64,000 bases of DNA from Fimbriimonadaceae bacterium (lineage in GTDB: Bacteria > Armatimonadota > Fimbriimonadia > Fimbriimonadales > Fimbriimonadaceae): NCBI GenBank assembly GCA_023957775.1, contig JAMLGR010000010.1, positions 1 through 64,000 on the forward strand, in the 5' to 3' direction. Below, in pieces: positions 982-30,067 of the stretch. The translations under genes and the position numbers were made by a program. Under the pieces are notes generated by a model. The model made no database searches and was not told the origin of the DNA. It saw only the letters and a program-made list of their open reading frames with translations. How positions within the stretch are numbered: the stretch's first letter is position 1; each line of letters starts with the position of its first letter.

Positions 982-1060
982 ATGTGACGGCGGTGTGACG
1001 GGTTTTGAACCGTCAGAGAGCGCCGCACCCAGGCTCGCTCCCGTGAACAACCCGTGACGG
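982..1060. promoter_or_regulatory. 11-bp-period GTGA-type direct repeats in a divergent promoter region
   Basis: Two pairs of heptamers with a 4-bp spacer lie between the minus gene at 302-952 and the plus gene at 1095. On the minus strand, GTCACAC-CGCC-GTCACAT covers 999-982. On the plus strand, GTGAACA-ACCC-GTGACGG covers 1043-1060. The 11-bp spacing of heptamers is the known geometry of SARP (AfsR/ActII-ORF4-type) operators. Two SARP-like regulators are encoded in this window, and similar pairs occur at 24575 and 30050. Binding is inference. Confidence 0.4.
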
Positions 1061-1094: not shown

Positions 1095-4000
1095 GTGGAA
1101 CGACAAACCCCGTTCTTCCGTCCCGGCGGGACCCTCGATCCTCGGGCGGAGAGCTATCTCCGGCGATCGGCCGACGCGGTGCTGCTCCGAGCCCTCCTCG
1201 ACCGCGAGTACGTCTACCTCCTGGACTCGCGTCAGAAGGGCAAGTCCTCCATGGTCGCGCGCGCGATCGTGGGCCTCCGCGAGCGGGGCGTCCGCACCGT
1301 CAAGCTCGACCTCCAGCGCGTCGGGGCCAATGTCTCGCCGGAGCAGTGGTACGCCGGCCTGCTCGCAGGCGTCGGCGACGAGTTGGGACTGAGCGCAGAG
1401 GTGTTCGGCCACTGGGCTCAAGCCAGACCCGTAGGGCCGATGGCGCGCTGGATCGGGACGCTGGGCGAGGTCGTGCTTCCCGCGTTCGCCGATCCGATCG
1501 TCGTGTTCGTCGACGAGGTCGACTTTGTGCGGGCCCTGCCCTTCTCCACCGACGAGTTCTTCGCAGGCATCCGCGACTGCTACAACCGGCGCGCCGAGTC
1601 GGAGGCCTTCGGACGGCTCACGTTCTGTCTCGTAGGCGTCGCGACCCCCTCCCAACTCATTCGCCATCCCAAGATCACGCCGTTCAACATCGGCCGACGG
1701 CTCGACCTCACCGATTTCACGCTCGAGGAGACCCGCCCCTTCGCCTACGCCCTCGACGCGCGGGGAGTGGACGGAGCCGCGCTCGTGGAGCGCATCCACT
1801 ACTGGGCAAACGGCCATCCGTACCTCACCCAACTCCTGTGCAGCCTGGTCGCGGACGCGCCGGGGGCCGGGCCGGAAACCGTCGACCGAATCGTCCGCGA
1901 AACCCTGCTCAACGCGGAATCGCGCGCGCGCGAACCCAATCTCGCCGACGTCGAGAGACGTCTGCTCGAACCTGACCTCCCCGCCCCCGACAAAGAGGAG
2001 CAGCGCTGCCAGGTCCTCGACGCGTACGGTCAGGTCCTTCGCGGACGGACGGTCGAAGGGGGAGACGACGACCCCCTGGTCGCGACCTTGCGCTTGTCCG
2101 GCGTGTGCGTGGAGAGACACGGCCGCCTGACCTTGAGGAACCGCCTGTACTCGAAGGCCTTCGACGATGCCTGGCGCAAGGCCAACCTGCCCGAGGCCGA
2201 GTTGAGGCGGCAGCGGAGGGCCGCTTGGAAAGCGGCTCTGAGCACGGGCGCGGTGGCGCTGACGATCGTGGCGTCGATCGGGGCCCTTGCCATCCGGAAC
2301 GCCCAACTCGCCGCCGATCGGGAGCGCCTGCTTCGACGCGCCGAGGCGCTAGGCAACGAAGCCGCGCGACAAGCCTACGTCACCCGGATGAACCTGATGG
2401 ACATGCAAGGGTCCGACGGTCTCCGCCGGGCCGCTTTGCTCGATCTCACCGGTGCGTACCAACGCAAGGGCTGGGAGTGGCACCGTTGGAACCTGCTCCT
2501 CAACGGCCAGCTTTCGACCCTCCGCTTTCTTCCCACCGGCGGCTTGCTCGCGTTCGGCCCCCACGGGCAACTCGTTGCCGAAGTGACCGTCGACCCCTCC
2601 GCCGTCCGGGTCTGCTACTCGGATGGGACAACCTGGACCACTCCTCCCGCCGAGACCCGTTGGATCGTGCGCCTGGGCATGACCCCTCCCCATGCACGGG
2701 CGTACACCGCAAGAGTCGCTCCCCTCTTTCGCCGGCTCAAGGCCGGGAACACGATTGCGGTCGACGCCTCGCCCGACGGCTCCCAAATCGCCTACTACGA
2801 CATCGAAGACCGAGCCTACCGGCTCGTCACGGCCGCAGGCATCACCAAGACCCTAATCTCCCCCACCGACCGACCGAACAACATCCTCGGTGTCTTTTCC
2901 TACGATGGATCGAAGTTCGCCATCCTGACGGCGGACGGGCGTCTCCGCTGCTACGATACGGAGACCGGACGGGCCCTCTGGGACAGTCCCTGCCGGGAAC
3001 CGATCTATCTCTCTTTCTCACCTGATGGTTCGCTCGTGGCCGTCGCCCTCAACGAAGAGGCAATCCCCATCTTCGATGCCGCTGACGGGCGTCAGGTCGC
3101 TTTGCTTGAGGGACACACCGCGCCCGTACGCTCCGTGGAGTTCTCCAAGTCAGGAAAGTTGCTGCTCAGCGCCTCGCAGGACGGTACCGCCCGACTGTGG
3201 TCCGTGCCGCAACGCAAAACGCTTCAGACGTTCACCGGGCACCGCGATCTCCTGATGGGAGCGGCTCTGTCCCCGGACGGACGCCGGGTCGCCACCTGCG
3301 CAAACGACGGAGAGGTCCGCCTCTGGGACGTTCACCCGCCCCCCGCCACCGCGATCGTTGTCCGGGTTTCCGATGAGATGCACCGACTTGTCGAGAGCCC
3401 CCGAAACGAATTGTGGACGGCCGGCTCCAAGGGAGGCTTTGTGGCTTCCTTCGACCCGGACACCGCACAAATCGCCGCCACCTTGCCGCTCGGCACGATC
3501 GCCGACGATTCGGCCATCGCCGCCGATCCGGACGGTCGCAACATCGCCTGTTTCGGCCCAGACGGTACGGTACGGCTGCTGGATGTAAGAACGCTCCGGG
3601 AACGGCAGCGCTGGGACGTGGGTTCGATGCAGCCAGGCCCGCTTCAAATCTCCCAAACCGGCCTCATCGCCGCAGGATTCAAGGATGGAACGCTGTTGCT
3701 GCTCCAACCGGGATCGCCCGACGTCCGCCGTCTGGAAGGACACGCCGAACGGATTCGCTCGCTGGACTTCCAGCCCGGTGGGAAGTTGCTTGCCAGCGCT
3801 TCGATGGACCGCACCGTACGGATATGGGAGGTGGACACGGGCAAGCTCCTCAGGGAATGGGCGCCGGACAGCCCAGGCACCCCCGTTGGGGTCCAATTCT
3901 CGCACGACGGCAGGCTCCTCGCCTGCGCGAACTACGACAACACCGTGGCGGTTCTGAACATGCGGGGTGGCCCTGCGAAGGTCCTGCACGGACACTCCCA

Positions 4001-4340
4001 CCGGGTCTTCGGAGCGCGGTTCTCACCCGACGACACGCGTATTCTCTCCTACGGGTACGACGGCACCGCGAGGCTGTGGGACACTCGCAAGGGCACCGAA
4101 ATCGCCGTGCTGCGCCACGACAGTTGGGTGTCCTCGGCGCGCTTCTCTCCAGACGGCGAACGCATCGTCACGGCATCGGCGGACAAGACCATCCGCATAT
4201 GGGACGGCCGCTTCGGCGACGAGTACATGGTGCTCCGCGACCATACCGAGGCCGTGTTCGACGCCGCCTTCACCGCCGATGGCAAATCCATCGTCTCGGC
4301 GGCCAACGACGGCACCGTGCGCGTGTGGAGGTCGAAGTGA
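1095..4340 (+). CDS. Membrane-anchored AAA-like ATPase with WD40 C-terminus (copy 1)
   Basis: A 1081-residue protein starting at GTG; this start matches the N-terminus of its paralogue at 4402 (both continue with PFFRPGGT). Residues 1-370 form an AAA-like (PF14516-type, STAND-related) ATPase. It has a Walker A loop DSRQKGKSS at about 44-52, a Walker B strand IVVFVDEVD at about 135-143, and a TPFNIGRRLDLTDFT motif near 195. One membrane helix follows at about 380-400. A short helical segment ends in GWEWHRW (about 459-465), a motif also seen in planctomycete WD40 proteins. Residues from about 480 to the end are WD40 repeats with repeated SPDG, ARLW and VRIW strands. It is probably a sensor or scaffold whose ATPase is triggered by partner binding, but no ligand can be read from the sequence. 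The paralogue follows 61 bp downstream. Confidence 0.85.
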   Translation: MERQTPFFRPGGTLDPRAESYLRRSADAVLLRALLDREYVYLLDSRQKGKSSMVARAIVGLRERGVRTVKLDLQRVGANVSPEQWYAGLLAGVGDELGLSAEVFGHWAQARPVGPMARWIGTLGEVVLPAFADPIVVFVDEVDFVRALPFSTDEFFAGIRDCYNRRAESEAFGRLTFCLVGVATPSQLIRHPKITPFNIGRRLDLTDFTLEETRPFAYALDARGVDGAALVERIHYWANGHPYLTQLLCSLVADAPGAGPETVDRIVRETLLNAESRAREPNLADVERRLLEPDLPAPDKEEQRCQVLDAYGQVLRGRTVEGGDDDPLVATLRLSGVCVERHGRLTLRNRLYSKAFDDAWRKANLPEAELRRQRRAAWKAALSTGAVALTIVASIGALAIRNAQLAADRERLLRRAEALGNEAARQAYVTRMNLMDMQGSDGLRRAALLDLTGAYQRKGWEWHRWNLLLNGQLSTLRFLPTGGLLAFGPHGQLVAEVTVDPSAVRVCYSDGTTWTTPPAETRWIVRLGMTPPHARAYTARVAPLFRRLKAGNTIAVDASPDGSQIAYYDIEDRAYRLVTAAGITKTLISPTDRPNNILGVFSYDGSKFAILTADGRLRCYDTETGRALWDSPCREPIYLSFSPDGSLVAVALNEEAIPIFDAADGRQVALLEGHTAPVRSVEFSKSGKLLLSASQDGTARLWSVPQRKTLQTFTGHRDLLMGAALSPDGRRVATCANDGEVRLWDVHPPPATAIVVRVSDEMHRLVESPRNELWTAGSKGGFVASFDPDTAQIAATLPLGTIADDSAIAADPDGRNIACFGPDGTVRLLDVRTLRERQRWDVGSMQPGPLQISQTGLIAAGFKDGTLLLLQPGSPDVRRLEGHAERIRSLDFQPGGKLLASASMDRTVRIWEVDTGKLLREWAPDSPGTPVGVQFSHDGRLLACANYDNTVAVLNMRGGPAKVLHGHSHRVFGARFSPDDTRILSYGYDGTARLWDTRKGTEIAVLRHDSWVSSARFSPDGERIVTASADKTIRIWDGRFGDEYMVLRDHTEAVFDAAFTADGKSIVSAANDGTVRVWRSK

Positions 4341-4401
4341 CCGGCATTTTCCGACGAATGCGGTCTAGTAACGACCCGATGGACTCCGTATGCTGTTAGG
4401 C

Positions 4402-7400
4402 ATGGATCGTGAGTCGCCGTTCTTTCGTCCGGGCGGGACGATGGATCCCAGTGCGCAGAGCTACATCGAGCGCGCCGCGGACGCACGCCTGCTCGAGGCT
4501 CTGCTGGCCGGCGAGTACGTGTTCGTCCTCGACTCGCGCCAGAAGGGCAAGTCGTCGATGGTTGCCCGCACGATCGTCAAACTCAAAGAGCACGGCGTAC
4601 GCACCGTCAAGCTCGACCTCCAACGCATCGGCGCGAACGTCACGCCCGAACAGTGGTACGCGGGGCTTCTGGCTGGCATCGGGCAAGAGCTGGATCTCAC
4701 CAAAGAGCTGTTCGCGTACTGGGGCGAGCGACAGGCGGTGGGACCGCTCGCACGCTGGCTCGGAGCCCTGGAGTCCGTCGTGTTGCCCGCCTTGCAGCAA
4801 CCCCTTGTCGTTTTCGTCGACGAAGTCGATTTCGTTCGCGCGCTTCCCTTTCCCACGGACGAGTTCTTCGGCGGCGTCCGCGACTGCTACAACCGGCGCA
4901 CGAATGGTGCCGGTTTCGACAAGCTCGCGTTCTGCCTTGTCGGCGTGGCCACTCCTGCCCAACTCGTGCGAAACCCCGAGATCACGCCGTTCAACATTGG
5001 TCGTCGCCTCGAACTCTCCGACTTCACGCTCGATGAGACGCGGGGGTTCGCCCAAGTGTTGGATGCTCCCACCCGCAGCGGAGAGGCCCTGCTCGGCCGG
5101 GTCCACCATTGGGTCAACGGCCACCCTTACCTCACGCAGCTGCTTTGTAGCCACCTTGCTGCAGACCAAGCGCTCGCCAACCCGAAGGACGTGGACCGGC
5201 TCGTCCAGACGCTCTTCCTTTCTCCCGAAGCGCGCCAAAGCGAGCCGAACTTCACCGACGTCGAACGGCGGATGCTGGAGCCCGACATCCCCGGCATGAC
5301 GCCCGAGGAGCGGAAGATCCAAGTGCTCGAGCTCTATGGCCGCATGCTCAGGGGCAAGCCGGTGGAGGGGCCTGAGGAGAATCCCGTCGTGGCCACTCTG
5401 CGACTCTCCGGCATCGGCCACGAGGAGGGTGGAACGCTCCGCGTGCGCAATCGCACCTACCAACGCGTCTTCGACGAGAACTGGCGTAAGCAACGCCTTC
5501 CCGACGCCGAACTGAGGCGCCAACAAGGTGCTGCTCGCGTCGCCGTCCTCCGCACCGCGGTCGTCGCGGCAGCCGTCGTGCTGGCGGTCTCGACCGCCGC
5601 GGTCGGCATGTGGCGGCTCTCCAACGATCGCCAGCGGTCGTTCACGGCGCTGCAGCAGCGCACGAACGAACTGAACAAGGTCTCGAATGACCGCCAGACC
5701 GCGCTCTCGGCTCTCGAAGAACGCACGAAGGAGCTCGACGCGTCGGCAGCAGCCCGCGAGCTGTCGCTCACGGCCCTCCAGAAGCAATCCCGCGAGTTGA
5801 AGGAGCTCGCCGAGCAGAAGAGCCGAGCCCTTGCAGACCTCCAGGCGCGCACCGACGAACTGATTGACCGCACCTACGACGCGCGCATCAACGTCATGCA
5901 GGGCGACCTTGCCGCAAACCGGTGGACACGGATGACGCGGCTGGTCGAAGCCACGGCCGACAATCCGAACCGCGGGTGGGAGTGGGGACACTACGCGCTT
6001 TCCATCGACTACGGAAGCCCGCGGGCCGCCTTCCGCAAATGGAGCCGGCTCGAGGAGCAGCCCGACGGCCGCATCCTCGTTTCCACGTTCGACGGGCTCT
6101 ACGACTTCGACTCCATCCCCCCTAAGCGCGTCCAGAAGATCTCTTCGACCCCGGGCTTCACTCCCGGAATCCGTCGGGGCGCGTTTCGGGTCCAAATGAT
6201 CGACTCGACCCGCGGAGACGCGATTCGCGATGCCGAGACCGGCAAGCTCCTGGTCAAGGCGCGCAACTACTCGATAATCTACGACGTGGATCCCAAGCGC
6301 CGTCGCTACCTCCTCTTCGTCGGGCAGGCCGACGACAAGTCGATCGAACTACGCCGAATCGACGACGACGCCCTTCTCGCCTCGTTCCAGGGCCCCGACC
6401 AGGCGAACGCCGGCCGGTTTCTGCCCGATGGCACGTTCCTGGGCATCTTCGCCACCCCGAAGGAGGGGGTGGCAGAAGTCTGGCACTGTGCGCCGGACGG
6501 CCGGGTCCTCACCAAAGCGCCGTCGGATCAGTGGTACGCGTCAGGCATCGCGACCGACGCCCAAGGCACGCTCTACGCCGCCTATGGGGACAACGCCAAA
6601 CTCGAAATCCGGCGGGTGAAGGACCATCAGGTGATCGCGACGCTTCCGGACCACCCGAAGCCGCTCACCGACGTCGTGTTCTCGCGCGACGGCAAGCAGT
6701 TGCTGACGGGCTGCGAGGACGGCGTGGTCCGCCTCTTCGCCGCGGACTCCGGCGCGCAAATCCGAGTCCTTCCGGGGCTCACCTATGCGATCCGGACCGT
6801 CGTGTTTCTTCCTGACGGAAAGGGATGGTGCGCCATCGACCAGGAAGGCCACTTTCAGGTGTGGCGACGCTCGACCCCCCTCGCGCTCGAGGAGTTCCGC
6901 GACCAGGTGGGGAGAATTGGCGTCGCGTTTGTGACGCAGGACAACCGGCGGCTCGTTTCCACATCGTCCCACGGGGCGGTCATCAGCCGCGACCTCGTCA
7001 CGGGAATGGTGGTGCAGAGGCAGTTGCTCGAGCGGGGAAAGACGCCCCACGTCGGCGGCATGCGCTCAAGACATCTCTACTGGATACGCCCCGACGGCGG
7101 GCTCGAGCGGTTGGCGACCGACACCCTGCAGACCCTGAGCGCGACCGAGGCCTTCCTGCCAAGACCCATCGTTTTCGTGTCGGTGATCGACAGGGGCCGC
7201 CACCTGTTCGTCTGCGGCGCCGACCGCATCTACGCTGTGCTCGACGCGCGCACCCTCAAGGTCATCCGTCGCTTTGAACCCAAGGCCACGCAATCGGGGT
7301 TGGACGCCCTGGGGGTTCGAATCCTCGACGCCTTCGCCATGAACCCCGACGCGCCCGTCTTCGCCATCTTCCAAGGCGACGTCGGCAAAATCATGGTCTT

Positions 7401-7965
7401 CTCCGCGAGCGACGGGCGGCTGGTCACCCAGTGGGCGCCCCAACAGAAGGTGCTGGCCATGGTGCTTGCGAAGAACGGCTCCGAACTCGTGGCCAGCGAA
7501 GGGGTCCTCTCCCAAGCCCACGATGGCCGCACCCTGATCTACGACGCCGCAACGGGCCGGCAAGTCGGCGAGCTCAGGCACCCGGGATTGGCGATGCTGT
7601 GGCCCCAGTACTCGGAGAAAACCGGCATCTTGGCCACCCTCGGAGGGGGCAACAGCAACATCGTGTTCCTGTGGGACGTCGCCGCAAGGAAGAAGATCGG
7701 GGAGTTCAGGCCCGATCCCCGCACGATGATGTTCTACTTCTCGCCGGACGGCAGACGCATCGTCACGAATTCGCCGGACGGAACCGTGGCGGTATGGAAC
7801 AGCCGGACTGGAGAGCAGTACTTCCAAATGCCCTACCCCGGCAAGATCACCTACCAGCCCTACGGGCGGGGCGCCGGGGCGCAATTCTCGCCCGACGGCC
7901 GCCGCCTCGTGCTGTTGTCAGAGAACGGGTGGGTGCGACTCTGGAACAGCCTGGCATGGAATTGA
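4402..7965 (+). CDS. Membrane-anchored AAA-like ATPase with coiled coil and WD40-like C-terminus (copy 2)
   Basis: An 1187-residue paralogue of the preceding gene. The ATG at 4402 (MDRESPFFRPGG) is preferred over the ATG at 4390 because it aligns with copy 1. The ATPase core is nearly the same: DSRQKGKSS, VVFVDEVDFV, TPFNIGRRLELSDFT. A membrane helix lies near residues 380-400. Copy 1 then lacks an insert of about 75 residues: a coiled coil of roughly 3.5 units of 21 residues (LxALxxRTxEL pattern). The GWEWGHY motif follows. The C-terminal ~650 residues are a divergent beta-propeller with fewer canonical WD dipeptides than copy 1. The coiled coil suggests oligomerisation. The 3' end overlaps the convergent PEP-CTERM gene by 48 bp. 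Confidence 0.85.
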   Translation: MDRESPFFRPGGTMDPSAQSYIERAADARLLEALLAGEYVFVLDSRQKGKSSMVARTIVKLKEHGVRTVKLDLQRIGANVTPEQWYAGLLAGIGQELDLTKELFAYWGERQAVGPLARWLGALESVVLPALQQPLVVFVDEVDFVRALPFPTDEFFGGVRDCYNRRTNGAGFDKLAFCLVGVATPAQLVRNPEITPFNIGRRLELSDFTLDETRGFAQVLDAPTRSGEALLGRVHHWVNGHPYLTQLLCSHLAADQALANPKDVDRLVQTLFLSPEARQSEPNFTDVERRMLEPDIPGMTPEERKIQVLELYGRMLRGKPVEGPEENPVVATLRLSGIGHEEGGTLRVRNRTYQRVFDENWRKQRLPDAELRRQQGAARVAVLRTAVVAAAVVLAVSTAAVGMWRLSNDRQRSFTALQQRTNELNKVSNDRQTALSALEERTKELDASAAARELSLTALQKQSRELKELAEQKSRALADLQARTDELIDRTYDARINVMQGDLAANRWTRMTRLVEATADNPNRGWEWGHYALSIDYGSPRAAFRKWSRLEEQPDGRILVSTFDGLYDFDSIPPKRVQKISSTPGFTPGIRRGAFRVQMIDSTRGDAIRDAETGKLLVKARNYSIIYDVDPKRRRYLLFVGQADDKSIELRRIDDDALLASFQGPDQANAGRFLPDGTFLGIFATPKEGVAEVWHCAPDGRVLTKAPSDQWYASGIATDAQGTLYAAYGDNAKLEIRRVKDHQVIATLPDHPKPLTDVVFSRDGKQLLTGCEDGVVRLFAADSGAQIRVLPGLTYAIRTVVFLPDGKGWCAIDQEGHFQVWRRSTPLALEEFRDQVGRIGVAFVTQDNRRLVSTSSHGAVISRDLVTGMVVQRQLLERGKTPHVGGMRSRHLYWIRPDGGLERLATDTLQTLSATEAFLPRPIVFVSVIDRGRHLFVCGADRIYAVLDARTLKVIRRFEPKATQSGLDALGVRILDAFAMNPDAPVFAIFQGDVGKIMVFSASDGRLVTQWAPQQKVLAMVLAKNGSELVASEGVLSQAHDGRTLIYDAATGRQVGELRHPGLAMLWPQYSEKTGILATLGGGNSNIVFLWDVAARKKIGEFRPDPRTMMFYFSPDGRRIVTNSPDGTVAVWNSRTGEQYFQMPYPGKITYQPYGRGAGAQFSPDGRRLVLLSENGWVRLWNSLAWN

Positions 7966-8928
7966 CGCGGGGCGGTTCACGCGCCGGCGCCGGCCCACGG
8001 CCAATGCCCCCAAGCCCAACACGACAATCGTCGCAGGCTCGGGAACCGGGTCGTAACGAAAGAACGCGTTGGTGTTGTTCTCGCGCCAGTAGCTGTAACG
8101 CGATCCGTCGTAGACCGCTCGGGCGTAGTGAAACACCGTTGGCGTATCGTCGACCCTTGTCCAACTGTTGGAAGCGATGGTGTACTCGTACAACCCGAGC
8201 GGGTCGGAAGAGTTCACACCGGTGTTGAGGAGGAGCTTCCCCCCGCCCACATCGAGCAGTTGGTGTTGGTAGGTGGTGACGGGGATGTCCGCGAGGCGCT
8301 GCCAACTGATCGTCGACGGATCGAACGCATAGAAGTGCGAGGATGGGCTCAACCCATCCTTCTTTCCCACGGTCAGATAGAACTTCCCGTCGGCGCGCGC
8401 CATCGAATTGTAAGCCATCGGCTCGGGGTTGTCGGCGATCGGCAAGAAGTCGGAGGCGCCCTGCCTTCGGAACATTCGCTGATCCCACATGCCCCCGGTG
8501 TAGTAGAAATCCACGCCGTCCGTCGAGCCGGCCCCGTACGGCGCGGGGCCCCAGGTCGGGCGCTGCCAGGCGTCCGCGGCGATTTCATACCGGTAGAACT
8601 CGTTTGCCCAGTTCCCGCGGTTCATGTAAATCCACCCGTCGTGGATCGTCACCGCGACGTTGTGTTCCATCGGCGCCAGCGCATCCGCCAACCTCGTCCA
8701 GGTGTCGCTTCCGATGTTGTACCGGTAGAACTCGGGAGAGACCCGAAAGCTTCCTCCCCCGAGTGAAACGTAACCCACCGTGGCATAGATGGAGTCGCCC
8801 CCCTCGTACACCATCGTGTTCGCCGAGCAGTTGCCTTCGGGAACAGGAATCGATGCCAACTGATGCCAGGTGCCGGCCAACGAACTTTCGGCCAGCACGG
8901 TCGCGGCAACCACGATCAAGAACCTCAT
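7918..8928 (-). CDS. Kelch-like PEP-CTERM secreted protein
   Basis: A 336-residue exported protein. The ATG at 8928 follows a Shine-Dalgarno GGAGAGG and opens a signal peptide (MRFLIVVAATVLAESSLA). The body has Kelch-like repeats with FYRY/WxRLAD and strand pairs such as YRYNIGSDTWTRLAD and YEYTIASNSWTRVDD, typical of a beta-propeller. Near the C-terminus is a PEP-CTERM signal: VPEP, a hydrophobic helix, then GRRRR. Such tails direct proteins to exosortase for cleavage at the cell surface; no exosortase is in this window. Unusually, the frame continues 18 residues past the Arg cluster, into the convergent ATPase gene (overlap 7918-7965). A lost stop codon could explain both oddities. Confidence 0.85.
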   Translation of the reverse strand: MRFLIVVAATVLAESSLAGTWHQLASIPVPEGNCSANTMVYEGGDSIYATVGYVSLGGGSFRVSPEFYRYNIGSDTWTRLADALAPMEHNVAVTIHDGWIYMNRGNWANEFYRYEIAADAWQRPTWGPAPYGAGSTDGVDFYYTGGMWDQRMFRRQGASDFLPIADNPEPMAYNSMARADGKFYLTVGKKDGLSPSSHFYAFDPSTISWQRLADIPVTTYQHQLLDVGGGKLLLNTGVNSSDPLGLYEYTIASNSWTRVDDTPTVFHYARAVYDGSRYSYWRENNTNAFFRYDPVPEPATIVVLGLGALAVGRRRRVNRPASIPCQAVPESHPPVL

Positions 8929-9011
8929 ATCAAGAACCTCTCCAATCAGCGAAGTCTGCAAAGGGCGTCCTGCGCGAAGCGCCTGAAACGCTCCATTGTG
9001 AGCGGGGAAAG

Positions 9012-10793
9012 TCAACAAAGCGCACGTCTCAGGTACGCCTCGTACGCCGGAACCCGGAACCCGGCCTCCTGCCCCGCGCTCGCCAACACCCCGGCGGCCC
9101 AAAGCCGCTGCCGTGTCGAGTTGTGCTCCAAAGGCTCCCTGGCCAACAAGCGCCGCACTTCCGCGGCGGTTTCGGGATCTCGCCGGATCGCCTCCCAGAG
9201 ATGCCGAAGGTGCTCGCCAAACGGACCCTCGTCGTCCGCCACCTTGGCGGCCAACTCCTCCGTCGTTCCGCCACGGGCAAGGAAGGCGAAGGCGCGCTGC
9301 GAGAGGTAGGGATGTCCGCACGCAGCCTTCCACACCGCCGCCGAATGAAGCGGATCTCCAACCCCGTATCGCGCGCCCAACTCCGCCACCTCTGACTCCG
9401 TGAAGTCGCGGAGACTCACGCGCACGCCCACGTTGAATGGCGATTGGTTCAGATCGGCGATGAAGAGATGCGCCTCGGTCGCGTAGCTGATCAGGAGGCA
9501 CAACCTCTTCCAAGGGCCGTCCGGGTCAAGAGCCCGGCGGTTGTGCCAACTCCTTACGAGGCCGAAGAAGTCGTCTGCATACTCCGTTCCGAAGACGCGG
9601 TCCACCTCGTCCATCGCCCAGCACACCGGCCCTTCCACCTGGCGCAGCAACGACTCCACCAGCGCGTCGAGATTGGAGTTGGGACCGATCCACTCGTTCC
9701 ACGAGGGTTCGTAAGTTAGCCCGAGCTGAGTAGCGAGACTGTGGACCAGAGCCCGATACAGCGTCGCGGAACGCTCGATCTCGGAACGACTGAGAGCCTG
9801 GAAGTCCGTGACCGCCACCGCGTGACCCGCTCCGCGGGCCCGCCCCGCCGCGCGGGCGACAAGCGAGGTCTTGCCGGTTTGGCGCGGGCCGAACACCAGC
9901 ACCACGGCCTCCTGCTCACCCATCGCCTCCTCGACGCGCCGGTCGGCGGCGCGCTCGATGTACAGCCGGGATCCCGCAGGAACGGCGCCGCCGGAAGCGG
10001 CTGCTTCCGGTTCAACACCCTCTTGGTTGGCCGGATGTCCTTCCCGCGCCGAAGCTTCCCAGTCGAGTGCGCCAGGGACGCGCCACTCCGGAGCGTCCAA
10101 GGCCGCTGCGGCGGCGGCGCCCGGCGTTTGGCCGTACTCGTCCGCCAGCATCGTCTCGAGCGCCTCGTACTGCTGGAGCGCCATCGTGTGATTCCCCATC
10201 GATGCGTAACCCAGGATCGACGCGACGTAGGGCTCTTCCCGCAGCGGCGCGAGCAAGGTCGCCGCATGGGCGAGCCGGACGGCCTCCCTTCCTTGTCCGC
10301 GGCCGACCAGCGTTCGGCACAACTCGTCCACCGCCCGGCAGTACATCTCCTCGTACTGCCTGCGGTAAGCGAACACCCAGTCGTCGTCCAGCGGGGCCAG
10401 CAACGGCCCGCCGTAGAGCACCAAGGCATCGGCCATCGCCCCGTCGTCGTCTCCCTGCGCAGCCGCGAGCAACGATTCGAACTCCTCCACGTCGGACTTC
10501 ACGGCCTCGACCGCCAACATCGTCTTGCCGTGGTCGGTTCGCACCCACTTGCCACGCTCTCCCTCGTCCTCGAGAGCATCGCGCAGGTCGGCGATCGCAC
10601 GCCGAAGGCTTTGGGCCTGACGGTCTCCGTCGGAGTCCGGCCACAAAAGGTCTTGCAGCGTGTGGTTCGCAATGGGTCTACCCTTGTTCAGGGCCAAGAA
10701 CGCGAGCAGAGCCCCCACCCTTCTGGAACGGAAGCTCGCCGCCGTGCCCGACGACACGACCTCGAATCGTCCCAACATACGAATCTGCCACAT
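9012..10793 (-). CDS. SARP-family regulator (BTAD) fused to AAA-like ATPase
   Basis: A 593-residue protein. Residues 1-95 are an OmpR-type winged helix as in SARP activators (MLGRFEV start, RRVGALLAFLAL helix, LLWPDS, QSLRRAIADLRDAL recognition region). Residues ~98-235 are the helical bacterial transcriptional activation domain (BTAD). After a linker, residues ~275-593 form an AAA-like ATPase with Walker A FGPRQTGKTS (301-310), Walker B CWAMDEVD (391-398), and SPFNVGVRVSLRDFT and GHPYLSQ motifs. These match the ATPase motifs of the two large proteins at 1095 and 4402 closely. It lacks the NB-ARC plus TPR tail of AfsR-like proteins. It is probably a DNA-binding activator switched by nucleotide state. 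The trio in 10 kb hints at one regulatory circuit. Confidence 0.8.
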   Translation of the reverse strand: MWQIRMLGRFEVVSSGTAASFRSRRVGALLAFLALNKGRPIANHTLQDLLWPDSDGDRQAQSLRRAIADLRDALEDEGERGKWVRTDHGKTMLAVEAVKSDVEEFESLLAAAQGDDDGAMADALVLYGGPLLAPLDDDWVFAYRRQYEEMYCRAVDELCRTLVGRGQGREAVRLAHAATLLAPLREEPYVASILGYASMGNHTMALQQYEALETMLADEYGQTPGAAAAAALDAPEWRVPGALDWEASAREGHPANQEGVEPEAAASGGAVPAGSRLYIERAADRRVEEAMGEQEAVVLVFGPRQTGKTSLVARAAGRARGAGHAVAVTDFQALSRSEIERSATLYRALVHSLATQLGLTYEPSWNEWIGPNSNLDALVESLLRQVEGPVCWAMDEVDRVFGTEYADDFFGLVRSWHNRRALDPDGPWKRLCLLISYATEAHLFIADLNQSPFNVGVRVSLRDFTESEVAELGARYGVGDPLHSAAVWKAACGHPYLSQRAFAFLARGGTTEELAAKVADDEGPFGEHLRHLWEAIRRDPETAAEVRRLLAREPLEHNSTRQRLWAAGVLASAGQEAGFRVPAYEAYLRRALC

Positions 10794-26556: not shown

Positions 26557-28185
26557 TCAGGTGCCTGCGTAGTACAGGGGCTCCTGCCGCCAGTCCTTCT
26601 CGCGATCGTGCGCCATCGCCTGCACGCGCGGGCGCCGCTCCCGCAGCCGCACGGACTCGATCATGAGCGCGCCGCCGCCCGAAAGATGGTTCTTCCCCAC
26701 GCACTCGAGCCGGACCACATAGCGACCGGGCGCGGGCCAGAAGTCCAAGAAGTGGAACTCCCTCGCACCGACCTCCGGCGCGTAAAGGTCCATCGGCTCC
26801 CCAAGCCGGATGCCGTCCAGCGAGAGCACGAAAATGCCCAGATCCGGACCGAGACCCATCGTGACGAGAAGCCGCAACGGCTCCTTCACGCTCACATCGA
26901 ACGGAATCTCCACTGCGCACGCACCGTCCGGCGCGGGAACGACCAGCACCGGATGCTCGAAGTGCTCCGGCAACGAGCGGACGGCCCGCTCTCTCCCGAC
27001 CGGCTTCGGTCTCCCCGTGTACTCCAACCGTGGCAGCTCTTCAGGCTCTTGCGAGGGCGGCTCGAGCGAAGCCGCTAGGGCGACGATCCGATCGATGCTG
27101 GGGAGCGCGCGCTCGCGCGCGTGGGGGGCCCGGGCTGCGAACGTCGGCGCCCCCGTCTGGTACCAGAAGGCCACGCTGGCATAGTCGTCCTCGCGCGGGT
27201 TCCAGCTCATCGCCCGGTACTCGGGGTTCTCGTCCGGCGACATCCACCCAAACGTCTCGAACTGAACTCGAATCGACGTGTTGAACACGATCGGGTCGTT
27301 CACGTGCCAACGGTAGGCGCTCGTATGACCGCCCACGATGCCCCACTGGTCGAAATAAGGCACCCCGAAGTAGGGAGTCAGGGTCTTTTCCAAACCCCAC
27401 GCGCACAGGAAGTAGTCCTCGGTGCCCGTGCCCCAAATCGACGGAATCGCTTCGCCGTCGATCGCGATCATCTCGTCCCCTTCGCCGAACCAGTACGGGC
27501 TGCGCGTGCGCACGCAGAACACGGTCCCCACGTAGTGGCCCTTCCCATCGGTTTCGAGCACGGTGTAAGGCTCGCCGTTGCCGGTCGGATAGCGCTGCGT
27601 GTACTGCGCATAGAAGTAGGGCGTGTCCTCGGGCAGCGAGTCGCGCTGGACCCAGTCGATGTTGTAGTACAAGAGGCTGAGGGGCTTGTCGCTCTCGTTT
27701 ACGATCTCGACGCGAGCCGACTTGCGGAACGGCATGTGCCAGAAGCAGTTGTACGAGTCGCCGCCCTGGGTGGTCACGGGCACGCTGATCACCTCGCTGC
27801 GCTTGCCGAAGCAACCGCCGAAGAAATCGCCCAAAGGCGCCTCGACGCCCGGCCGGTCGCTGCCATCCCACGTGATGCGCAGCAGCAGCTCCTGGTGGTT
27901 GGCGGACCCATCCTTCGCCCACGGATGAGGCTCGGGCCCGAGAAACGTGATCCACATGTGGGTGATCACGCCCGGGCCTTCGACATCCATCAGCACATGG
28001 GTCTGCCCCGGGGGGATTCGAAAGTTGTCGCGATTGCTCTTCTCCTCGAGGTCGCTCTTAGGGGGTGCCGTGGGGTCGTAGTTGCCGTCCGGCCCCTCCC
28101 GAAAGGTGGAGGTGGCGCGCCGGCTGCGTCCGCTCTGCGGCGCGGCAAGCGATCCCATGGGGCCTGGACCGAACGGAGAGTTCAC
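26557..28185 (-). CDS. DUF2961 family protein
   Basis: A 542-residue protein. Residues ~40-380 match DUF2961 in layout: PPGQTHVLMDVEGPGVITHMW, the WDGSDRPGVEAPLGDFFG core, YNCFWHMPF and WGTGTEDYFLCAWG. The last ~140 residues form a second beta-sandwich that looks carbohydrate-binding (HFLDFWPAPGRYVVRLECVG). Some DUF2961 proteins have been characterised as difructose-anhydride-hydrolase-like glycoside hydrolases, so a sugar role is possible here. The GTG at 28185 forms a GTGA overlap with the upstream stop; ATG at 28158 is the alternative. No signal peptide is seen. The site is translationally coupled to the 606-residue protein. Confidence 0.8.
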   Translation of the reverse strand: MNSPFGPGPMGSLAAPQSGRSRRATSTFREGPDGNYDPTAPPKSDLEEKSNRDNFRIPPGQTHVLMDVEGPGVITHMWITFLGPEPHPWAKDGSANHQELLLRITWDGSDRPGVEAPLGDFFGGCFGKRSEVISVPVTTQGGDSYNCFWHMPFRKSARVEIVNESDKPLSLLYYNIDWVQRDSLPEDTPYFYAQYTQRYPTGNGEPYTVLETDGKGHYVGTVFCVRTRSPYWFGEGDEMIAIDGEAIPSIWGTGTEDYFLCAWGLEKTLTPYFGVPYFDQWGIVGGHTSAYRWHVNDPIVFNTSIRVQFETFGWMSPDENPEYRAMSWNPREDDYASVAFWYQTGAPTFAARAPHARERALPSIDRIVALAASLEPPSQEPEELPRLEYTGRPKPVGRERAVRSLPEHFEHPVLVVPAPDGACAVEIPFDVSVKEPLRLLVTMGLGPDLGIFVLSLDGIRLGEPMDLYAPEVGAREFHFLDFWPAPGRYVVRLECVGKNHLSGGGALMIESVRLRERRPRVQAMAHDREKDWRQEPLYYAGT

Positions 28186-30002
28186 TGCCTGAGGAGCTCC
28201 CGAGCCCGGTCCCTCGCCTTTCCGGAGCCACTGGCGGCCAACACCTCGATCCACGGCTTGGCGGAATCGATGCCGTAACGGGCGAACACGTCGAGCCAGC
28301 TTAGGACTTCGGGCTCGTCGCTCGAGAAGAGGCGTGTGACGACGAGATCGAGTATCGGGGATCGGCCCATGGCGTCGCGGAGAGAATCGGGCACCTCGTG
28401 GAGCAGCATCGCGGCCGCAGCAAGATGGGCCTCGGGAGATTCCGAGTCGATCATCTGCCACAGCACGGTCGCCAGGTACCTGGCTCCCGTCTCCGGCTCG
28501 CGCAACCACTCGGCGACCTTTCCCCGGGTCGCCGCAACCACCGCCTTCGGGTCTGCTGCCAGCGCCGTCCGCAGCGCCCAGTTCGCCGAGGGGTCGTCGG
28601 GGATGGGCTCTGCCAGGAACTCGGGCTTGAGCAGGCCCCTCAGCTTGTTGGCCTTGGCCTCGGGGAGCGATCCGCCCAACACGTCGTGCAGCACGCGCAC
28701 GTAAGAGCTTTTGGTGATTGGTGGATCGAGGCGGTCGAGGATCGTGTCGTAGCTGGCGTCGTCGGTGTAGATCCAGAGGCGCGCCTGGTCCCAAGGGCCT
28801 CGCGAGCGGGACGCCGCCGCGATGCCGGCGAGTCGTCGGAACGTGGGATCCTTGGGGTAGGCGACCGCGTAACGGGTCTTCGCCGTGGGCGCCTCCTTCT
28901 TCATCTGGGCGCACAGCACGCGCACGCGCTGGGGCTCCGCATCCGAAATGGCGGTGACTCCGAAAGTCGAGCGGAGCAGCTCGGCGTTCTCGGCCACCAC
29001 GAGTTCCTGGGCGCTGGAGTCGTCCGGCACGAGCCGGGTGCCGGCGGGGAGGAACAGTCCGCGGGCATCGCTCCCCGAGAAGGAGACCTGCACGGCATTC
29101 ATGCTCTCGCCGACGATGGAGTAGCGACCCGCCTTGGCAAAGGATTCCCGCTGCAGGCTCGCGTACCCCGCCGTTCGCGTTTGGGTCGGCAGGATCTTGA
29201 AGTCGCTCCCGAACATCGTTTTGGGGGGGTCGGAGCCCGTGGAGGCGTGTTGGGTCTTCTCGCACGCGCAATCCAGACCGCGCGGTGCCACCGTCGGTCC
29301 AGGATCGACCAAGGTCGCACCCGCAATGCGGATCTTCTTGTGGTCGAACAACCTCCCCGCTTCCGTCGCAGGCCGTCCACCCTTTGAACTCATCAGGGTG
29401 ACGGTGACCGTGAGGACGACGTCGTACGGCCGCTCGTAGAGGAGGTACTCCTGGTATGCGCACGGCTCGTCAGGTGTCACGATATGCGGCCGCTCGAACT
29501 TCACCGTCCGCTTGGCGAACGCCTTCTTGAACTGGTTCACCGCGTCCAGCACCGGCGCAAAGCTCGCCCATGGAAGTCCTCGTGCGGCGGAGGCGCGCAT
29601 GACATCGCCGTATTCGAACCGCCACGAATCCACCCGGCCCTGGGGAAGAAAATCGATCGGCGTTCGCCAGTAACCAGCACCATCACCCTCGAAGCTGTGG
29701 CTCTCGGAACAGGGCCGGTCGCACAGGCGGTTGCAGGCGGCGTGCGTGGCGTGGTTGGGCGGCGGACCTTGGCATGCGTTGATGCACATCGATCGCCAAA
29801 CGATTTTGGGTTCGCCCTCATGCGCCGGTTCGAGGTCCACCGACACGTCGAAGCGCGCGAACTCGCTGTCCCCGCCGCCCGTGTCCTGCTTGGGTCCATC
29901 GATCCGGCGCACGATGGTGAGCGAGAGGTCCTGGGCGTTGCCCGTATTGAGCGGAGTGCCCTGACCCGCGGTGATCAGGAGCGCAACGAGTGCGGCGACC
30001 AT
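28182..30002 (-). CDS. Exported protein of unknown function
   Basis: A 606-residue protein with a signal peptide (MVAALVALLITAGQG). I do not recognise the family. Residues 70-100 are Cys-rich (CINACQGPPPNHATHAACNR, then CDRPC), which suggests a disulfide knot or metal site. The middle is beta-rich. The last ~200 residues look like HEAT/ARM-type helices (ADPKAVVAATRGKVAEWLRE, AHLAAAAMLLHEV). It precedes the DUF2961 gene with a 4-bp overlap. The 119-bp gap to the divergent gene at 30122 contains a GTCAC direct repeat (30050-30067). Confidence 0.7.
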   Translation of the reverse strand: MVAALVALLITAGQGTPLNTGNAQDLSLTIVRRIDGPKQDTGGGDSEFARFDVSVDLEPAHEGEPKIVWRSMCINACQGPPPNHATHAACNRLCDRPCSESHSFEGDGAGYWRTPIDFLPQGRVDSWRFEYGDVMRASAARGLPWASFAPVLDAVNQFKKAFAKRTVKFERPHIVTPDEPCAYQEYLLYERPYDVVLTVTVTLMSSKGGRPATEAGRLFDHKKIRIAGATLVDPGPTVAPRGLDCACEKTQHASTGSDPPKTMFGSDFKILPTQTRTAGYASLQRESFAKAGRYSIVGESMNAVQVSFSGSDARGLFLPAGTRLVPDDSSAQELVVAENAELLRSTFGVTAISDAEPQRVRVLCAQMKKEAPTAKTRYAVAYPKDPTFRRLAGIAAASRSRGPWDQARLWIYTDDASYDTILDRLDPPITKSSYVRVLHDVLGGSLPEAKANKLRGLLKPEFLAEPIPDDPSANWALRTALAADPKAVVAATRGKVAEWLREPETGARYLATVLWQMIDSESPEAHLAAAAMLLHEVPDSLRDAMGRSPILDLVVTRLFSSDEPEVLSWLDVFARYGIDSAKPWIEVLAASGSGKARDRARELLRQ

Positions 30003-30049: not shown

Positions 30050-30067
30050 GTCACGGATTCGTCACAC
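30050..30067. promoter_or_regulatory. 11-bp-period GTCAC direct repeat
   Basis: GTCACGG-ATTC-GTCACAC on the plus strand: two heptamers with a 4-bp spacer, 47 bp upstream of the minus gene start at 30002 and 55 bp upstream of the plus gene at 30122. It is the reverse-complement form of the GTGA-type pairs at 982-1060 and 24575-24592. Confidence 0.4.

Follow-up and report, generated by a model that had tools for sequence, protein, structure and literature searches.

A membrane STAND receptor paired with a STAND-SARP effector: a probable two-component module in a Fimbriimonadaceae genome

Genes at the locus and two subfamilies of AAA_35 ATPases

The window examined here (64,000 nucleotides, the first 64 kb of contig C10 in a 3.5 Mb Fimbriimonadaceae genome) encodes three proteins that contain an AAA-like ATPase module, Pfam AAA_35 (PF14516), and that are treated below as the candidate receptors and effector of a STAND signalling module (Table 1; genes are named by their first positions). 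Pfam E-values for AAA_35 were 5e-22 (1095), 4e-31 (4402) and 1.5e-56 (9012), with bit scores of 78.6, 108.6 and 192, all above the gathering threshold of 27, and a whole-genome search of the host returned exactly three PF14516 matches, all at this locus. The original prediction, made from the DNA letters, had described four ATPase motifs as common to the three proteins and all four were confirmed where it had placed them: the Walker A sequences of Table 1, DEVD in all three proteins, a third motif which reads TPFNIGRRLDLTDFT (1095), TPFNIGRRLELSDFT (4402) and SPFNVGVRVSLRDFT (9012), and a fourth which reads GHPYLTQ, GHPYLTQ and GHPYLSQ in the same order. They are hallmarks of PF14516 and not, as had been thought, an unusual set. 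Neither RQxGK[ST]S nor PFNxGxRxxLxDFT was found in any further frame of the 64 kb window. The domain orders described earlier were also borne out: Pfam gave WD40 matches in the 1095 and 4402 proteins, each of which has a membrane helix some 127 residues past its ATPase, and Trans_reg_C (an OmpR-type winged helix) and BTAD, the SARP portion, ahead of the module in the 9012 protein. The SARP gene is convergent with both WD40 genes. In the effector AAA_35 reaches residue 589 of 593, leaving no C-terminal sensor and no TPR of the AfsR type on the chain.

The AAA_35 domains of about 110 loci were then compared, and were found to be of two types. In the receptor type AAA_35 is the N-terminal part of a long protein, with one membrane helix and a sensor behind it, while in the effector type it lies at the C-terminus behind a variable front domain. 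Receptor domains formed a single clade in the tree (support 100, branch of 1.56 changes per site); identity was 46% among effectors, 49% among receptors and 26% across the types. The two WD40 modules of the window were 68% identical to each other and 27-28% identical to the SARP module, from which they were separated in fully supported clades. Signature columns differed (YATEAHLF..NQSPFNVG in effectors, GVATP.xLIR...TPFNIG in receptors), while GK[ST] (97-100%), DE (about 90-100%) and the winged-helix GxP motif, as GHP or GQP, were conserved in both. Judged by sequence, AAA_35 is two ancient subfamilies and not one reused module, so that the idea of a single switch joined to two outputs gives way to that of receptor and effector subfamilies. 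The first glycine of Walker A is replaced by D, T or N in receptors; a reading of this as loss of function was dropped because cyanobacterial effectors also lack that glycine (KAPRQMGKTS).

A hydrophobic helix was located 127.5 residues past the ATPase (10-90% range 123-134) in 72 of 78 receptors. Positive charge was higher on the ATPase side of the helix in 62 receptors and lower in 3, a positive-inside pattern which puts the ATPase on the cytosolic side of the membrane and the sensor on the outer side. Effectors had no such helix and appeared soluble (113/114). Receptor sensors included WD40, TPR, PEGA and MORN/RHS, with PAS-GAF or histidine kinase in other phyla. By pairwise identity, sensors are diverging faster than the ATPase, at 28% against 69% for the two receptors of the window and 64% against 84% for a pair from the same genus. 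One Nostoc receptor-type AAA_35 protein (L204 4219-6249) carried HisKA and HATPase replacing WD40, and its partner was an effector with a short front.

AlphaFold2 (AF2) models were obtained for residues 1-434 of receptor 2 (predicted local distance difference test, pLDDT, 90.8) and for the effector (pLDDT 90.5). The receptor model matched 2qen (Z 19.5), ORC2 (Z 17.8), NRC4 (Z 16.0) and CED-4 (Z 15.6), and the effector model matched 2qen (Z 21.1) and CED-4 (Z 17.9), with its front half matching AfsR 8k60 (Z 18.6) and EmbR (Z 18.9). As predicted by these models, which resemble archaeal STAND ATPases, ORC, CED-4 and plant resistosomes, the fold of receptor and effector is that of a STAND protein, with nucleotide-binding domain, helical domain and winged helix. 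A search by sequence for solved homologues returned short P-loop matches only.

Table 1. Positions of the receptor and effector genes, their motifs and candidate SARP boxes in the window
Feature	Position	Strand	Description
Receptor gene 1	1095..4340	+	1081 aa; receptor-type AAA_35 STAND module, membrane helix, WD40 propellers
Receptor gene 2	4402..7965	+	1187 aa; receptor-type AAA_35 STAND module, membrane helix, coiled coil, weaker WD40-like propeller
Receptor gene 2, alternative start	4390		same frame
Effector gene	9012..10793	-	593 aa; SARP winged helix, BTAD and effector-type AAA_35 STAND module
Effector-type AAA_35 domain of the 9012 gene	9027..9992	-	
Walker A, receptor 1	1221..1250	+	LDSRQKGKSS
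Walker A, receptor 2	4528..4557	+	LDSRQKGKSS
Walker A, effector	9864..9893	-	FGPRQTGKTS
Kelch/PEP-CTERM secreted protein gene	7918..8928	-	Pfam Kelch and PEP-CTERM
SARP box, distal	984..999	+	GTGACGGCGGTGTGAC; exact match, 11 bp repeat
SARP box, proximal	1043..1058	+	GTGAACAACCCGTGAC; 9/10 match; inverted GTCAC at 1066-1070
Candidate further SARP target site	30050..30065	-	GTGACGAATCCGTGAC; upstream of exported 606-aa protein gene

Pairing of the two types and exchange of effector front ends

Profiles specific for the receptor and effector types, separated by a bit-score gap at about 150, were used in a survey of 291 Armatimonadota genomes. Both types were present in 54 genomes, a receptor alone in 1, an effector alone in 2 and neither in 234 (Fisher 3e-55). 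In one of the effector-only cases the contig edge falls inside a WD40-like reading frame abutting the effector, and the other genome is only 72% complete. Rare co-occurrence of the homologues had been named in advance as an outcome that would refute a circuit, and the two types were found together in 54 of the 57 genomes having either. Placement of the SARP ATPase in a different clade from the WD40 pair had been named as another; formally this is what the tree gave, yet this split, which recurs across phyla, marks a matched pair and so does not speak against the circuit.

Seventy-one non-redundant pairs were collected, 35 in tandem with the effector first, 13 in tandem with the receptor first, 22 convergent and 1 divergent, and the genes of most were touching or overlapping; the gap of 1053 bp between receptor and effector in the window was the largest. 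When loci were retrieved with the effector domain as the only query, 39 had 4 kb or more to either side, and in 28 of these an AAA_35 neighbour stood beside the effector. The pairwise identities of partners were correlated (Mantel r 0.75, 0/5000 permutations).

The effector query, run over 84,980 species genomes, gave 531 related places, and the 80 loci which were kept were mostly from Armatimonadota, Acidobacteriota and Verrucomicrobiota, with one from Beggiatoa. Adjacent receptor/effector pairs were found in Acidobacteriota, Verrucomicrobiota, Cyanobacteriota, Chloroflexota, Abditibacteriota and Beggiatoa, and tandem 'AAA-like' genes were found on plasmids of Cyanobacteriota, Chloroflexota and Abditibacteriota. 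Complete pairs from these last three phyla contained one effector-scoring and one receptor-scoring gene, with margins mostly above 90 bits. No conserved neighbours of SARP pairs were found outside close relatives, and the unit is thus the pair alone. On one contig (L113 2244-12745) two complete SARP pairs, each of an effector and a receptor, follow directly on one another. In two verrucomicrobial loci (L166 5217-10866 and L133 4340-9222) a TIR effector is followed by two different receptor-type genes, like the double receptor of the window, and another pair (G145:C117:3084-4192) has three stops in the effector frame and is apparently decaying.

Effector front ends comprised SARP-BTAD, TIR, class III cyclase with TIR, Ser/Thr kinase, kinase with TIR, SARP with TIR and a domain of 400 residues without assignment, and effectors of Cyanobacteria and Chloroflexota added CHAT-TIR, Cro/C1-type HTH, HTH-TIR and kinase. 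At least 27 changes of front end were counted on the tree. Catalytic motifs were retained, namely the TIR glutamate, the metal aspartates of the cyclases and, in most kinases, HRD and DFG. AAA_35 has also been described as an accessory domain of sigma factors in cyanobacteria (PMC11119718). Effectors with the 400-residue front were seen at L078 7717-10035 and L079 5273-7543, and the L078 front gave no match in a Pfam, PADLOC or NCBIfam scan.

GTGAC boxes at receptor promoters

SARPs are known to bind direct repeats 11 bp apart (PMC10936776, PMC5930380). In the region 5' of gene 1095, TGTGACGG occurs twice, 11 bp apart (983, 994), and CCCGTGA also occurs twice, 11 bp apart (1040, 1051). There were 23 occurrences of GTGAC-N6-GTGAC in 516 kb of loci with SARP effectors, compared with about one for other spacings, and a single one in 928 kb of loci without SARP effectors. 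Upstream of the receptors of SARP pairs 11 sites were observed where 0.03 were expected, the maximum in 2000 shuffles being 2. When boxes were counted pair by pair at a threshold of 9/10 matches, they were present at the receptor promoter in 15 of 17 convergent SARP pairs and at the SARP promoter in none of the 17. Of 13 tandem pairs with the SARP gene first, 5 had a box ahead of the operon that both genes share, and among 40 non-SARP pairs 1 had a box (Fisher 3e-9). Eight loci from two families gave a receptor promoter consensus of roughly TGTGA[CA]-N6-GTGACG-N6-GTCACA-N10-TA[TC][CA]AT, followed within a few bases by the start codon, a layout which puts the box across the -35 region; the proximal box of the window lies at this conserved place. 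These promoter boxes, which the original prediction had not picked up, are the best evidence of functional wiring between SARP and receptor.

The host genome contained five exact boxes, all intergenic or at gene starts, while a reversed control gave zero. One is the distal box of the window, and the other four lie near the genes for an exported 606-residue protein, a GH115 glycosidase and PEP-CTERM protein, a subtilase and a protein SARP-like by eye, and these genes are candidate SARP targets. The gene for the exported protein (28182-30002, minus strand) is a possible second target; its exact box is followed by a TTGCCA-N17-TATACT promoter between box and gene. The box at L215 4719 (host contig C16:83718) lies between the GH115 glycosidase gene and a divergent gene for a PEP-CTERM lactonase-like propeller. 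At L214 4408-8790 (host contig C16:46407-50789) there are two genes of ~450 residues whose starts look SARP-like by eye, with a GTGAC box at the start of the first; neither gave a Pfam match.

Proposed wiring, its alternatives and known systems

We consider it likely that the window locus is a two-component STAND module, in which a signal passes from a STAND receptor in the membrane to a STAND-SARP effector that controls the receptor operon. The receptor, duplicated here, would consist of a cytosolic ATPase joined by one membrane helix to a WD40 sensor on the outer side, and a stimulus at the sensor, presumably a ligand, would alter the receptor ATPase. This ATPase would then contact that of the matching effector and so release the effector front domain; we lean towards such contact between the two. 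Once released, the SARP domain would bind the two GTGAC repeats that lie 11 bp from each other across the -35 of the receptor promoter. It is very likely that this operator is under the control of the pair's own SARP effector. Binding would raise receptor expression as a feedback, and activation of the receptor genes is the probable sign of the effect. The SARP would probably have a few further targets too, at promoters of genes for exported proteins. In relatives the front domain found on the same receptor/effector core is TIR, cyclase, kinase, CHAT or HTH. The circuit first suggested, in which STAND sensors of the membrane act with a transcription activator, is thus strongly supported by the comparisons across genomes, through the co-occurrence and the promoter boxes, except that the SARP is only one of many interchangeable effectors. 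It is about an even chance that these pairs are a signalling or immune architecture of their own kind, found in at least seven phyla. Its STAND receptor, which spans the membrane, and its STAND effector, a separate protein, would be paired by way of two co-evolved ATPase subfamilies; the outputs would be interchangeable and range from NAD-cleaving TIR to transcription factors, and in the transcriptional versions the effector would be wired to the expression of its receptor.

A number of observations weigh against this scheme. Eleven of the 39 effectors with room for a neighbour had no AAA_35 gene beside them, one genome has its single receptor and single effector unlinked at ~1.1 Mb, and in the window the Kelch gene separates the pair. 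The pair counts are not independent because the loci are related, and the co-divergence of partners may in part come from species history. The box was noticed first in the window and then tested elsewhere (14/16 without the window), some relatives that showed no SARP-AAA_35 have it as well, and the host genome has other SARP-like regulators which could perhaps read it; as other SARPs may share the motif, genome-wide box counts in relatives are only mildly informative.

Were neighbouring AAA_35 proteins co-inherited yet independent, each would be a complete STAND switch by itself and would assemble into homo-oligomers, in keeping with the GK[ST] and DE motifs kept in every protein and with the effectors that have no neighbour. 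We regard this as quite improbable given a co-occurrence which is nearly absolute even where the genes are unlinked, the one-to-one match of subfamilies in complete pairs, the lack of any sensor on the effectors themselves and the SARP boxes on receptor promoters. Repression of the receptor genes by the SARP, as a homeostatic negative feedback, would suit the overlap of the second repeat with the -35 and the inverted GTCAC between the -35 repeat and the -10, but is unlikely, since the SARPs characterised in PMC10936776 and PMC5930380 activate from sites overlapping or near the -35.

A third alternative concerns purpose and is compatible with the proposed wiring. The pair would be an immune module analogous to paired NLRs, its receptor recognising an attacker, phage or other, at the envelope and its effector killing or reprogramming the cell, and the SARP form would switch on a defence regulon. 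TIR domains with the conserved glutamate, kinases with HRD/DFG and cyclases with metal aspartates fit such a role, as do the patchy distribution (57/291 genomes), copies on plasmids beside transposases, the faster divergence of sensors than ATPases, and closest folds that include Avs and plant NLRs. However, no family of PADLOC-DB 2.0.0 covers the module beyond generic kinase, CHAT and TIR parts, SARP or HTH output with receptor autoregulation suits ordinary signalling, and the candidate target genes encode hydrolases and exported proteins. We hold it to be a real possibility, somewhat short of an even chance. The TIR and kinase versions may serve in immunity, with plasmids, patchy spread and TIR in favour, while autoregulation and the candidate targets favour ordinary signalling.

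Among known systems the closest in layout is the nSTAND2 two-gene operon, where two adjacent STAND NTPase genes, one with variable effectors, are predicted to form a hetero-multimer (Kaur et al. 2021, PMC8195603). nSTAND2, of the CR-ATPase/DAP3-like STAND branch, is by description a different STAND family; one of its NTPases is eroded while neither of the AAA_35 pair is, its effectors are mostly GT4 or HEPN instead of SARP, TIR, cyclase, kinase and HTH, and the text of PMC8195603 mentions for it neither a membrane helix nor a WD40 sensor, both of which the AAA_35 receptor has. AfsR and other large SARPs (PMC10936776) share with the effector the SARP-BTAD then STAND order, the latter as nucleotide-binding oligomerization domain, the 11-bp direct-repeat operator and the structural match given above, but AfsR carries its TPR sensor on its own chain whereas the sensor for the AAA_35 SARP is on a separate membrane STAND protein. 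TIR, cyclase, kinase and HTH form the same pool of swapped effectors on an NTPase core in conflict systems (Kaur et al. 2020, PMC7159879), although there the core is MoxR-vWA or other and not an AAA_35 pair. A STAND switch with separable sensing and output is also found in MalT and in plant sensor/helper NLR pairs, the latter being paired genes too. MalT is a single chain, and plant NLR pairs are cytosolic with leucine-rich repeat sensors.

The Npun2340/2341 family, placed in the MNS clade of STAND NTPases and named for two consecutive Nostoc genes (PMC8195603), is probably the published name for AAA_35-like proteins, taking it as the same as PF14516. In the open-access literature we found no description of it as a receptor/effector pair, no papers on PF14516 by that name and no account of an AAA_35 receptor/effector pair, though an earlier one is possible, for example in the 2004 STAND survey. 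The pair is apparently a widespread, undescribed two-gene signalling module. Proteins loosely annotated as 'AAA-like domain' become a testable two-gene system with a defined receptor, effector and named DNA target, and, as the SARP versions offer a simple readout of signals which elsewhere drive TIR, cyclase or kinase, they give a route to what the sensors detect. The module is also relevant to the way in which sensing and output can be divided between STAND proteins in bacteria, as they are in paired plant immune receptors.

The Kelch/PEP-CTERM gene lies directly 3' of the SARP gene and overlaps the end of receptor gene 2. A Kelch gene between receptor and effector was seen in the window locus only, among the pairs examined, and it is probably a local addition outside the core pair which could be co-transcribed with the SARP gene. 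Near the contig edge (302-952, minus strand), upstream of the receptor promoter on the opposite strand, there is also a short protein with a WD40-like (PD40) propeller.

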